26,759 nucleotides of DNA, taken from a virus. The position numbers and the translations under genes were made by a program. The notes beneath the pieces were generated by a model, which was given only the letters and a program-made list of their open reading frames with translations, searched no databases and was not told where the DNA came from. The stretch is from positions 1 through 26,759 of IMG/VR virus record IMGVR_UViG_3300025647_000225. One strand, 5' to 3'. Below are positions 3,889 through 16,595 of this stretch, piece after piece; within the stretch, counting starts at the first letter, position 1; the number at the start of each line of letters is the position of its first letter.

Positions 3889-3980
3889 GGGCACAAAAAA
3901 ACCGACCGAATCTGGAAGCACCCGTGATTCGATCGGCAATCCGCTGAGGCGGAGGTGTTTTGCTTGCGGGTGCTTCCACG
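3889..3980 (-). promoter_or_regulatory. Attenuator-type leader 1: 5' segment complementary to terminator loop
   Basis: The predicted transcript starts near 3980. Its 5' segment TGGAAGCACCCG (3978-3967) is a perfect 12-nt complement of the terminator loop CGGGTGCTTCCA (3924-3913). Pairing of the two crosses the terminator stem topologically, so it should prevent or distort termination. A small extra hairpin (CCGC-TGAG-GCGG, plus strand 3941-3952) lies between. The terminated RNA would be about 86 nt long. Confidence 0.7.
3895..3936 (-). terminator. Intrinsic terminator just before the 3888 start
   Basis: In the minus RNA an 11-bp stem, CCGATCGAATC with GATTCGGTCGG (one G-U wobble), encloses a 13-nt loop and is followed directly by seven T (3901-3895). 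Confidence 0.85.
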
Positions 3981-4016: not shown

Positions 4017-4241
4017 CTAAAACGGCACCTCGCTTGAATCAACCTGAGATTCCTCGCCTGCACTCTGCTGACGGTCCTTCGGCTCGAATGCCATGCTGAA
4101 GAATTTCCCGTACTGCGATTCCTTCACCCATGCGGAAATCCAGAATTCCTTTCCATCAACCGAGCAGTGCCCTTTGAATTCGGGCTGCCGATCGTTTTCG
4201 CGTTTTTTGTTCCGCTCCAATACTCCACTGTTTTCTCTCAT
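4017..4241 (-). CDS. Small conserved phage protein with SSB-like C-terminal tip
   Basis: The start is ATG at 4241 with GAGG six bases upstream. The 74-aa product has a basic N-terminus and then a compact beta-rich domain (QPEFKGHCSVDGKEFWISAW ... GKFFSMAF). This resembles a small domain common on mobile elements in which a short strand set ends in F(W)xxxxFKPKD-type sequence. It ends in an acidic tail QVDSSEVPF. Bacterial SSB ends in an acidic tip ...DIPF that docks replication and repair proteins, and the ending here is similar. A role near single-stranded DNA is inference. It is the last gene of the 4659-4017 set. Confidence 0.65.
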   Translation of the reverse strand: MRENSGVLERNKKRENDRQPEFKGHCSVDGKEFWISAWVKESQYGKFFSMAFEPKDRQQSAGEESQVDSSEVPF

Positions 4242-4257
4242 TTGGTGCCTCTTTGCT
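4236..4257 (-). repeat. 22-bp repeat copy 1: ribosome site and start of the 4241 gene
   Basis: This stretch covers GAGG, the spacer CACCAA and the ATG of the 74-aa gene. It recurs at 4789-4810 with a single base difference. Confidence 0.8.
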
Positions 4258-4788: not shown

Positions 4789-4810
4789 TCTCATTTGGTA
4801 CCTCTTTGCT
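4789..4810 (-). repeat. 22-bp repeat copy 2, holding an ATG-AGA-TAG minigene
   Basis: 21 of 22 bases match 4236-4257. The copied ribosome site and ATG (4794-4792) lead straight into AGA and TAG, so the start codon directs only a dipeptide. The ATG overlaps the TGA of the 110-aa gene. Confidence 0.75.
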
Positions 4811-7420: not shown

Positions 7421-7738
7421 CTATCGAGTCACCCACGTAAAAAGTGCCACGCCCAATCGCGTGCAAGCCTTCTTTGCCCGTTCCAGATACTTCGCTTCGG
7501 TGTCCTTGCCCCTGAGCAGTAGCAGGACCGCTGGCATCGAGCCAGTTTCATTCGCATAGTAGACCGCCTGACCGATCGATTCCGGCCACTTCTTCACCCA
7601 ATCCACCTCTATCGACAGCGTCTCGGTCTGGATGTCAACGCGGCTGCCGCATTCGAGACGGAATTCCGCGATGCCACCCATCCGCTCAGCGAGCCATCGT
7701 GACCATACTGGCTCAGGATCTGTCGGTTTCGGTGTCAT
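7421..7738 (-). CDS. Small PD-(D/E)XK-type nuclease-like protein, 105 aa
   Basis: The frame opens at 7798, but ATG at 7738 overlaps the upstream stop (ATGA) and is preferred. The product contains ECGSRVD35IQTETLSIE44VDWVKKW and then IGQAVYYANETGSMPAVLLLL. A G-x-RVD strand, an I-E-V strand with a following Lys and a GQ-x-x-YYA helix is the usual form of small restriction-like nuclease folds, where D35, E44 and a Lys near 49-50 would bind metal. Such proteins on phages include Holliday-junction or replication-repair nucleases. Activity is inferred from the motif only. Confidence 0.65.
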   Translation of the reverse strand: MTPKPTDPEPVWSRWLAERMGGIAEFRLECGSRVDIQTETLSIEVDWVKKWPESIGQAVYYANETGSMPAVLLLLRGKDTEAKYLERAKKACTRLGVALFTWVTR

Positions 7739-8592
7739 GTCATCCCCATCAGATTCGCGATGATCGCCCGCACACCGTCCAGACTTCGCCTCATCCATGA
7801 TTCGCTGCGAATTTCCTGCAAATCACCGATTGACCGCATCAATGCCTCGGCTGTCTTTTTCGCTCGATTCCGCTCGGTTTTCCAGTCCGTACTGAAATCA
7901 GGCGGAGATTCGACGGATTCCGATTCGTCCGGCTGCTGCGGATCTCCCGCAGTCATTGACGGCATCGATTCACCGCGTCCAGAGGCAGGCTGAGTGCCCC
8001 CGGAAACCGGAACAGAATCGGAATCCTGATCGTCTTCGGAATGTGCAATTTGCACATTTTGTTCAGTAGTTTCAGTGAACACCGAATCGTCTGGTGAATG
8101 TGCAATTTGCACATTTGCTCGTTCATTGCCAGCGTTTTCTGCGGGCTGCGGTTTCCGCTCCGCCACGATGTACGCCACTGTCCGCAGACTCACGCCAGCG
8201 GTTTCCGCGATCTTCTGCTGTGTCCACGTCGACTGATTGTCCAGCAACCACTCCACACATCGACGCTTGTCCGCTCTGGACATCCGCAACCCATGCCGGT
8301 CATTCGCGGTCATCCCGAAGATCAGAGCGTCCGTTCTGGTGCCCTTGTGAATTCGGCAGGGAATCGACGCCCGATTGATCTGAATCGCTGCCATCGTCCG
8401 ATGGAACCCGTCAGCCAGATAGTACCTGCTGCCATCGTGGAATACGTCGATCGGCCCTAGTGGCCAGCCGCTGCCGTTTGCTTCCGCGATCGCATCAGCG
8501 TATTCCGTCACGGTGTCATCACTCAACCCGATTCGGGCTTGTGTCCCTGCATCGGTAGTGATCTCGTCAATTGATAATGTCCGCTCTTTCAT
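7735..8592 (-). CDS. ParB-like protein with HTH and repeated linker
   Basis: Start ATG at 8592, overlapping the MazG stop (TGATG). The 285-aa product begins with a ParB/sulfiredoxin-like domain (TQARIGLSDDTVTEYADAI ... LADGFHRTMAAIQI, the GFHR near residues 62-65). A helix-turn-helix follows (WTQQKIAETAGVSLRTVAYI, 123-142), then a long polar linker and a helical C-terminus. The linker carries NVQIAHS twice (160-166 and 179-185), and the DNA there holds two perfect palindromes. Phage ParB-like proteins may partition, load or regulate, and some are nucleases. There is no ParA in view, so a regulatory or replication role seems likelier than partition. Confidence 0.8.
   Translation of the reverse strand: MKERTLSIDEITTDAGTQARIGLSDDTVTEYADAIAEANGSGWPLGPIDVFHDGSRYYLADGFHRTMAAIQINRASIPCRIHKGTRTDALIFGMTANDRHGLRMSRADKRRCVEWLLDNQSTWTQQKIAETAGVSLRTVAYIVAERKPQPAENAGNERANVQIAHSPDDSVFTETTEQNVQIAHSEDDQDSDSVPVSGGTQPASGRGESMPSMTAGDPQQPDESESVESPPDFSTDWKTERNRAKKTAEALMRSIGDLQEIRSESWMRRSLDGVRAIIANLMGMT
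8040..8115 (-). repeat. Two identical 19-bp palindromes inside the ParB-like gene
   Basis: AATGTGCAATTTGCACATT, with nine-base arms around one central base, occurs at 8040-8058 and 8097-8115. The identity extends to 21 bases in both copies, with centres 57 bases apart. They code for the repeated NVQIAHS but are also near-ideal protein-binding palindromes. Confidence 0.75.
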
Positions 8593-11248: not shown

Positions 11249-11355
11249 CTGTGCAGCCCATGAAAAAACCCGCACACCACAGGTCAGAGCTGCGATGGCG
11301 GGCTGAATCCGGTTTCCCGGCGATTCCTATTGTCACTCTGGCTCTGACTCAGAGT
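11249..11355 (-). promoter_or_regulatory. Attenuator-type leader 2 with kissing-loop complement
   Basis: The leader begins near 11355. A 5' hairpin (from the inverted repeat 11359-11331) presents loop AGTCAGAGC, of which GTCAGAGC (11348-11341) is a perfect 8-nt complement of GCTCTGAC (11290-11283). Seven of those nt are the terminator loop and one closes its stem. Between the two lies a hairpin with a CCGG-GAAA-CCGG core (plus strand 11305-11326), which is a GNRA-type tetraloop. The terminator then ends 14 nt before the ATG. Confidence 0.65.
11263..11302 (-). terminator. Intrinsic terminator before the SNF2-like helicase gene
   Basis: In the minus RNA CCCGC+CATCGCAG pairs with CTGTGGTG+GCGGG around loop CTCTGAC. 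That is 13 pairs with two G-U wobbles and one bulged U, followed by six T (11268-11263). The wobbles would be A-C mismatches in the opposite strand, which supports this direction. Confidence 0.85.
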
Positions 11356-11359
11356 GACA
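11331..11359 (-). promoter_or_regulatory. 10-bp inverted repeat over the start point (operator or leader hairpin)
   Basis: TGTCACTCTG-N9-CAGAGTGACA is perfect over ten bases. It begins three bases after the -10 and spans the expected start point, so it could bind a repressor. Its downstream part would also fold as the 5' hairpin of leader 2. Confidence 0.6.
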
Positions 11360-11361
11360 GG

Positions 11362-11389
11362 ATTATTGCGGTACAACTCCGCGTGTCAA
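11362..11389 (-). promoter_or_regulatory. Sigma70-type promoter of leader 2
   Basis: TTGACA (11389-11384), a 16-base spacer and AATAAT (11367-11362, 5 of 6). The -35 overlaps the stop of the HNH gene. Confidence 0.75.
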
Positions 11390-14411: not shown

Positions 14412-14633
14412 TCACCGACTTGACGGCACGTTACCGCCACGATGCTGCCTCGTTGCAGCAACCTCCGCACCGGAGGCAGGGGCCGATGAATCCAGTTCAC
14501 GCCTCAGAATCTTCAGATGACGCGGAGCCTCAATTCCGATTCGGACGCTATGCTGCCGCGTTTCCGTGATCGTGATCACAATGTCATCTCCGATTGCGAT
14601 CTGTTCCAGTTTCTTCCGTGATAACACTAACAT
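14412..14633 (-). CDS. csrA: CsrA-family RNA-binding translational regulator
   Basis: ATG at 14633 with AGGA six bases upstream is the start. The product (73 aa) begins MLVLSRKKLEQIAIGDDIVI, continues TITETRQHSVRIGIEAP, and has the RNA-contacting RREL after LKI near residues 44-48. This closely follows the CsrA consensus, including L4 and the conserved Arg in HRRE-type context. The last 25 residues are a non-conserved tail. CsrA dimers bind GGA in hairpin loops near ribosome sites, blocking or stabilising mRNA. Its own ribosome site (AAAGGA) contains GGA, as do all three attenuator leaders here. It overlaps the zinc-protein gene upstream by seven bases. Confidence 0.92.
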   Translation of the reverse strand: MLVLSRKKLEQIAIGDDIVITITETRQHSVRIGIEAPRHLKILRRELDSSAPASGAEVAATRQHRGGNVPSSR

Positions 14634-15543: not shown

Positions 15544-15620
15544 TTCCGCTCCTTCGCTCCGAGGCTTAAAACGTATATGGCTGTCAGTGCCAGAATCGCG
15601 TCGATGAGTAATTCATTCAT
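15537..15620 (-). CDS. Tiny one-span membrane peptide, 27 aa
   Basis: ATG at 15620 with GGAGT nine bases upstream; TGA at 15537-15539 overlaps the start of the 73-aa gene. The product is MNELLIDAILALTAIYVLSL GAKERKC, a single hydrophobic helix with a basic Cys end. It overlaps the stop of the ParB-like gene. The good ribosome site and overlaps on both sides are the support. Confidence 0.45.
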   Translation of the reverse strand: MNELLIDAILALTAIYVLSLGAKERKC

Positions 15621-16485: not shown

Positions 16486-16595
16486 AATGTTTTCTCCACG
16501 AAAAAACCCCTGGCAAATCAGCGAGCTGCACTTCGCGTCATTGTCAGGGGCTGGAGGTTGTTCAACTGTGAGACTTATTGTGCAGCAGTCCCAAC
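16486..16595 (-). promoter_or_regulatory. Attenuator-type leader 3 with loop complement
   Basis: The leader starts near 16595. GCTGCAC (16586-16580), about nine nt from the 5' end, is a perfect 7-nt complement of GTGCAGC (16531-16525) in the 8-nt terminator loop. The T tract ends four bases before the GGAG ribosome site of the 16485 gene. Confidence 0.6.
16501..16550 (-). terminator. Intrinsic terminator before the 16485 gene
   Basis: In the minus RNA CCCCTG pairs with CAGGGG, extended past one A-C mismatch by CAA/TTG. An apical GCGA/TCGC stem closes loop AGTGCAGC. Six T follow (16506-16501). Confidence 0.8.

Follow-up and report, generated by a model that had tools for sequence, protein, structure and literature searches.

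In uncultured bacterial viruses, short leaders ahead of several operons carry a 5′-terminal hairpin whose loop is complementary to the apical loop of a predicted intrinsic terminator just before the gene start. Judging from the sequences compared here, it is very likely that this loop-terminator complementarity is conserved. I propose as a reasonably probable reading that the leaders are promoter-proximal phage transcription attenuators, in which the terminator is tethered to the 5′-terminal hairpin by a loop-loop kiss. The leader would thus probably switch reading of the operon on or off.

The window, that is, the whole stretch of DNA analysed, is a 26,759-base virus record with phage tail genes on the right, replication-type genes on the left, and its main genes on the minus strand. 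Ahead of a helicase-methyltransferase operon lies the leader C2 (11389-11263, minus strand), in which a promoter, a 5′ hairpin (H1), a middle hairpin, a terminator, and a U-run follow one another within about 125 bases, with the helicase start behind them (Table 1). A sequence-only reading had described this leader, and its coordinates for the inverted repeat, the loops, the middle hairpin, and the terminator all check on the minus strand. It had also claimed that the 5′ loop perfectly complements the terminator loop plus one base, which is exact: GTCAGAGC in the leader is the perfect complement of GCTCTGAC. Its argument for the minus-strand RNA holds too, as the U-G and G-U pairs of the terminator become A-C mismatches on the plus strand.

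Table 1. Positions of the leader cassettes and associated genes in the window.
Feature	Position	Strand	Remark
C1 cassette	4014-3895	minus	
C1 promoter TTGACA-16-TATGAT	4014-3987	minus	promoter score
C1 5′ segment TGGAAGCACCCG	3967-3978	minus	includes AAGCAC, loop of a 4-bp hairpin
C1 middle hairpin CCGC-CTCA-GCGG	3941-3952	minus	
C1 terminator (predicted)	3901-3937	minus	loop includes CGGGTGCTTCCA (3924-3913), 12-nt complement of TGGAAGCACCCG
Small ORF behind C1	3661-3888	minus	
C2 -35 TTGACA	11389-11384	minus	promoter score
C2 -10 AATAAT	11367-11362	minus	16 nt from -35; promoter score
C2 inverted repeat = 5′ hairpin H1, TGTCACTCTG-AGTCAGAGC-CAGAGTGACA	11359-11331	minus	10-nt arms
C2 H1 loop AGTCAGAGC	11349-11341	minus	
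C2 kissing sequence GTCAGAGC inside H1	11348-11341	minus	
C2 middle hairpin CCGG-GAAA-CCGG	11320-11309	minus	same hairpin in G005a, known before the pattern scans
C2 intrinsic terminator stem-loop (predicted)	11303-11268	minus	
C2 terminator loop CTCTGAC, 7 nt	11289-11283	minus	
C2 terminator loop plus one closing base, GCTCTGAC	11290-11283	minus	complement of 11348-11341
C2 U-run TTTTTT	11268-11263	minus	
SNF2-type helicase, first gene behind C2	9860-11248	minus	
N6/N4 DNA methyltransferase, second gene behind C2	8958-9872	minus	
C3 cassette	16631-16501	minus	
C3 promoter TTGACA-18-AATACT	16631-16602	minus	promoter score
C3 5′ hairpin GGGACT-GCTGCACAATA-AGTCTC, loop GCTGCACAATA	16570-16592	minus	
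C3 terminator, loop AGTGCAGC (predicted)	16506-16551	minus	7-nt complement of the 5′ hairpin
C3 terminator-loop GTGCAGC	16531-16525	minus	complements GCTGCAC (16586-16580)
phrog_2615-type gene behind C3	15613-16485	minus	
CsrA homolog (RNA-binding regulator)	14412-14633	minus	Pfam E 4.8e-21

The C2 promoter, TTGACA-16-AATAAT, matches at 11 of 12 positions and is the joint best of the 18 scored in the window. From the spacing to the -10 element, transcription probably starts near 11355. Thus, the outer three or four pairs of the repeat probably lie upstream of the transcript, and the RNA hairpin H1 keeps about six pairs and the whole loop. The stretch 11389-11263 was predicted to fold at -54.4 kcal/mol, against -37.1 for shuffled sequences (z -4.2), and beats 200 of 200 dinucleotide shuffles. 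As for chance, the upstream 100 nucleotides hold a complement of at least 8 nt in 0.1% of shuffles, or in 0.3% and 1.4% under two alternative definitions of a match. The C2 leader was found unchanged in three further contigs, with 850 surrounding bases identical, and these contigs are therefore uninformative on constraint.

The inverted repeat spans the predicted start and had also been suggested to be an operator; on a pure operator reading, a phage repressor would bind over +1 and the loop complementarity would be accidental. The arms are indeed long and perfect, lie over the start, and reach upstream of the predicted +1. On the other hand, the window contains no second copy of the repeat, its half-site occurs 27 times where 27.2 are expected, the palindromes of H1 in other cassettes are unrelated in sequence, and the complementarity recurs with different sequences across cassettes and phages. 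The lack of a second site, the lack of a half-site excess, and the recurrent complementarity led me to reject the operator reading of the repeat, which is highly improbable, while at C2 alone the repeat may still have a DNA-binding role.

Other repeat-bearing sites were seen in the window. A promoter, TTGACA-18-GACAAT (3289-3260, minus strand), has its spacer and -10 under an inverted repeat, CAGCATTG-N8-CAATGCTG; it resembles a repressor site and has no terminator behind it. Two copies of a 31-nt repeat with the palindrome ATGTGCAATTTGCACAT (8029-8059 and 8086-8116, 57 nt apart) lie inside a ParB-like ORF (7735-8592) and are possible binding sites.

The window carries three cassettes, C1, C2, and C3, which have one layout and unrelated sequences. 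The other clear minus-strand terminators stand at gene ends (16678-16649 and 14407-14367); the match to their own loop never exceeds 4 nt, and no promoter-like site scoring at least 9 was found ahead of them. In the window, the promoter-proximal terminators of C1-C3 thus have a loop match, whereas these two gene-end terminators do not. Eleven further cassettes were found on other uncultured phage contigs, some of which (G001, G002, and G005) encode relatives of an exonuclease or of the C3 gene. In total, 14 cassettes with 13 distinct loop pairs were tabulated. Because two more cassettes in the window and 11 elsewhere repeat the layout with different sequences, the complementarity at C2 is not a matter of chance. 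The kissing proposed by the sequence-only reading is therefore strongly supported as a conserved sequence feature, recurring with other loops in C1, C3, other phages, and the leaders of helicase operons. Its picture of a compact leader, with a small hairpin separating the two loops, applies to C2 and recurs in part of the other cassettes.

The longest complements are those of G002a (14 nt), G001a (13 nt), G005b (11 nt as read from the sequence, 8 nt in the terminator scan), and G005a (9 nt); the last has a C2-type middle hairpin and the two 7-nt loops ATGCAAG and CTTGCAT. Weaker candidates, G001b, G002b, and G002c, have 6-nt matches only (p 0.28 for G002b), and G001c has an 8-nt match read by eye; these four were left out of the table of 14 and of the counts.

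I also scanned viral contigs for a promoter -35 followed at fixed distances by CCGGGAAACCGG and a T-run, leaving the loops unconstrained. The first scan gave 23 contigs, the three contigs that bear C2 itself being represented by the window. Thirteen of them have a strong terminator, and in all 13 (seven distinct leaders) the loops are complementary over 7-9 nt, while the 10 contigs without a strong terminator have no match longer than 4 nt. A later scan added seven contigs, among which only L111 has a strong terminator, with a 7-nt kiss and GGAA replacing GAAA. Together, the scans yielded eight distinct phage leaders with strong terminators, eight of eight kissing; C2 had seeded the pattern and G005a was known beforehand, so that six are new and blind to the loops. 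In 84,980 bacterial and archaeal genomes, a slightly stricter pattern gave 26 matches, four of them with strong terminators and none with a loop match above 4 nt. Duplicate rows had been removed from the pattern set (L053, L059, L064, and L070) and from the terminator comparison described below (G017).

How specific is the pairing? Among the 14 cassettes, the mean longest match of the terminator loop is 7.9 nt to its own leader and 4.1 nt to the leaders of others, and none of 200,000 random reassignments equalled the observed sum. For the eight CCGG-class leaders, an exact permutation found only two of 40,320 arrangements equal to the observed one, namely the true pairing and the swap of two leaders that share a loop. 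Nine of the 182 off-diagonal cells reach 7 nt; two come from the loop common to G013 and G015a, and all the others stem from the G001a loop and its match to CCGGGAAA in the middle hairpin. Over the seven positions of the 13 distinct loop pairs, three or four types of Watson-Crick pair occur at each position, and 91 of 91 cells are paired with no G-U; since the loop words were chosen as perfect 7-nt matches, this is so by construction and the permutation is the fair test. A MAFFT alignment of seven leaders aligned the stems poorly, and pairs were therefore counted by script. At the sequence level, these 13 pairs from 14 cassettes have the features of a kissing loop, namely two hairpins whose complementary loops are preserved by compensatory change.

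When all terminators of the scanned contigs were considered, a kiss of at least 6 nt was found in 20 of 121, compared with 3.4 expected from swapped upstream regions (both counts include repeats of one site). None of the 137 terminators in the controls, which were other helicase contigs, named phages, and bacterial loci, has a kiss of at least 7 nt, a contrast that is partly circular because the set of leader phages was defined partly by kissing leaders. Apart from C2 as the seed of the pattern, neither the pattern-retrieved set nor the permutation tests depend on the kiss. In the leader phages, seven of 18 promoter-proximal terminators scored no kiss: G002a, G001c, and five apparent chance promoter matches. 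G002a did so because its predicted apical loop differs from the complementary loop. Loops longer than 16 nt were dropped from the terminator scans as a rule against odd folds.

The geometry is also regular. H1 starts at or near the predicted transcript start, loop 1 starts 38-48 nt from TTGAC, and the loops lie 40-60 nt apart in the 14 cassettes. The distance from the end of loop 2 to the U-run is 11-18 nt in 11 of the 14 and 23-24 nt in two, and was misread in one (G015a, with TTTT in the stem). Before loop penalties, duplexes of 6 and 7 bp between the loops were calculated at roughly -6 to -11 kcal/mol. The DNA itself shows which parts are present, how they are ordered and spaced, that the loops are complementary, that this complementarity survives sequence change, and that it is used at several operons.

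From this arrangement, I infer kiss formation, terminator function, the direction of control, and its trigger. Transcription would begin beside H1, and the polymerase would, in many cases after passing a small stable hairpin, run into the intrinsic terminator that directly precedes the gene start. Judging from the known size of an elongation complex, loop 2 would just have emerged from the polymerase at the U-run, and H1 would by then have been ready for a while. H1 would already be folded when the terminator loop, usually of 7 nt, exits RNA polymerase, and could dock on this complementary loop in a kiss of some 7 bp. If H1 can dock in this way, the fate of the terminator would depend on H1 being free. 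Terminated transcripts would be RNAs of about 90 nt, and read-through transcripts would express the operon. Neither stem has to open for a closed 7-bp kiss. I lean slightly towards docking that hinders termination because expression of the genes requires the polymerase to get beyond a strong terminator; docking that promotes termination may be nearly as likely.

Among the observations that count against the attenuator, the -10 elements are weak in several leaders, and the complements of G001a, G002a, and C1 (12-14 nt) are beyond the capacity of a closed kiss. As such complements cannot form fully while the terminator is closed, these leaders may act as duplex switches or have another geometry. 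Might all the leaders work like this, the 5′ segment pairing fully with the terminator loop region and breaking the terminator as a classical antiterminator does, with the 7-nt loops as the nucleus only? Besides the complements of 12 nt (C1), 14 nt (G002a), 13 nt (G001a), and 11 nt (G005b), the closeness of the two C1 states (-32.6 and -30.3 kcal/mol, within 2.3 kcal/mol) speaks for it. However, the match ends at or near the loop in most leaders, nested pairing in C2 is far worse than the terminator plus H1 (-26.7 vs. -39.0), and G002a also favors the terminator (-40.0 vs. -33.4). I consider such a duplex somewhat unlikely as the general mode.

The genes behind the leaders are diverse. Homologous helicase genes are preceded by the leader in the window, G016, G013, and G005, each time with a different loop pair; in the last three, the helicase may be separated from the leader by one or two small ORFs. 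Compared with the window, the helicase and methyltransferase are 44.5% and 65% identical in G016, and 39% and 41% in G013; in G005, the helicase is 37% identical and the methyltransferase (41.5%) is placed behind a second leader. In G015, homologous genes are present, but the leader stands after them. Other leaders precede a DnaB-like helicase as the second ORF (L111), an initiator and a primase (G015b), or a ParB-like gene (G002a). This variety suggests that the leader is a promoter module, not part of one gene. The closest helicase relatives by protein in IMG/VR, L005 (51%) and L006 (50%), have no such leader directly upstream, and thus the leader is not tied to the helicase gene. Five named phages with a related helicase have no promoter-proximal terminator by the criteria used.

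The predicted parts follow the layout of an attenuator: a promoter, a short leader, an intrinsic terminator, and a gene start. In most cassettes, an ORF starts within about 6-30 nt of the terminator, and in many a Shine-Dalgarno-like UGGAG lies close behind the U-run. It could be argued that the RNA itself is the product, a stable small RNA of about 90 nt terminated at the U-run, with its ends tied by the kiss and read-through incidental; a promoter, a 5′-terminal hairpin, and a terminator make a complete small-RNA gene, and C2 folds well. The position of the ORF start and of UGGAG is instead the anatomy of a cis element and favors cis control by read-through. In addition, no common trans target is visible, because the loops differ among cassettes of one phage. 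The leader as a small-RNA product is therefore quite improbable.

Some observations on gene starts and short ORFs may be added. A 22-nt segment around an ATG is repeated with one change in the window (4236-4257 and 4789-4810), like a copied gene start. A promoter, TTGAC-N19-TAGACT, is common to the window (4753-4724, minus strand) and its relative L031 (15535-15564 and 17504-17533), in which it leads to long leaders with a short ORF running through the terminator. Such short ORFs across leader terminators, read by eye near 15612 and 17579 of L031 and near 18666 of L030, start alike (ATGACTACAATC, ATGAATCACAATTC, and ATGACGTACAATTC), and translation-coupled attenuation is possible there.

The window also encodes a CsrA homolog. 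In a family search, CsrA turned up in each of the nine leader contigs longer than 10 kb (G000, G001, G002, G005, and G013-G017; G015 and G017, both counted, carry identical leaders), in neither short leader contig (G018 and L111), and in one of 11 other records without leaders (G003). This co-occurrence and the layout common to several operons per phage would suit antitermination read by a protein: H1 or the middle GNRA hairpin would serve, like a nut site, to load a phage factor that lets the polymerase pass, possibly the CsrA homolog, and the kiss would shape the site. However, no enrichment of GGA motifs was found in the leaders (30 against 26.7 expected; 222 of 1000 shuffles had as many), and the middle hairpin varies, with CUCA in C1, UUCG in G015b, and none seen in C3, G005b, and G002a. 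Moreover, the relatedness of the phages confounds the association and may explain it. A protein-read site is thus unlikely, and the link between CsrA and the leaders is tentative.

If the leaders are attenuators with a kissing terminator, what would be new? Attenuators usually switch via two competing stems, whereas in these leaders the loop of the terminator itself has its counterpart in a separate hairpin, and the terminator loop is usually considered of little importance for termination. If docking alters termination, it would be a new RNA-only way to gate an intrinsic terminator, with a freely rewritable 7-nt address, and the natural set of loop pairs would be a ready collection of candidate orthogonal switches. 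A bolder and rather doubtful idea is a new regulatory RNA class with orthogonal kissing terminators on several operons, in which the released leader of about 90 nt competes for H1 on nascent leaders from the same promoter. If such feedback is true, each operon would sense its own transcript or the genome dosage, and related phages might be immune to or exclude one another according to their loops, much as incompatibility is set by loops in ColE1 plasmids. The loops of ColE1 RNAI and RNAII are also 7 nt.

Among known families, Rfam 15 at the curated gathering cut-offs gave no match in the window, L052, L054, L057, L061, L066, and L067; at a lax threshold, matches were at chance level only. I know of no system in which a terminator loop kisses the first hairpin of its leader, and a search of titles and abstract openings found no description of a 5′ hairpin kissing its own terminator loop. 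In pT181-type attenuation, contact between loops settles whether the terminator of a leader forms, as proposed here, but an antisense RNA is needed and the kissing loop is not the terminator loop. ANTAR-responsive leaders have two hexaloop hairpins with conserved loop residues; the present loops are mostly of 7 nt and nearly all different. A lambda nut site consists of boxA and a boxB pentaloop hairpin; the CCGG-class leaders have a GNRA tetraloop hairpin, which the other cassettes lack.

The IsrK model (RF01394) scored 9.7 bits (E 6.7) on the window, with a cut-off of 50 bits. According to passages of PMC4825925, IsrK of the Gifsy-1 prophage has a promoter, a short RNA, and a terminator, part of its transcripts are read through into the phage operon, and translation of the read-through form is affected in trans by the short form. 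IsrK shares with the kissing leaders a prophage promoter with a short RNA and a terminator, and pairing of the leader within the same transcript family; the passages describe no kiss between a 5′ loop and a terminator loop, and "kissing" occurs 0 times in them (PMC4825925). The P4 CI RNA with its seqA-seqC immunity is likewise a phage leader in which pairing within the leader region controls premature termination; as the passages have it, a processed RNA pairs with two flanking sequences, without a terminator-loop kiss at several operons (PMC4825925). The put RNA of HK022 likewise is structured, immediately follows an early phage promoter, and affects termination, but the passages describe two stem-loops that have no terminator as partner and modify the polymerase for distant terminators, in copies similar in sequence (PMC9378689). 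The contact of put is with the beta′ zinc-binding domain. The kissing leaders are set apart from put, since they would pair with the adjacent terminator and their loops vary freely, with one repeat. In ColE1, short complementary hairpin loops of RNAI and RNAII start the pairing, and the loop sequence sets specificity; these are, in the passages at hand, two antisense RNAs acting in trans in replication control (PMC9458437), whereas in the leaders a single transcript carries both loops, one of them that of a terminator. To some degree, the leader may thus resemble an attenuator whose loop contact is of the ColE1 kind.
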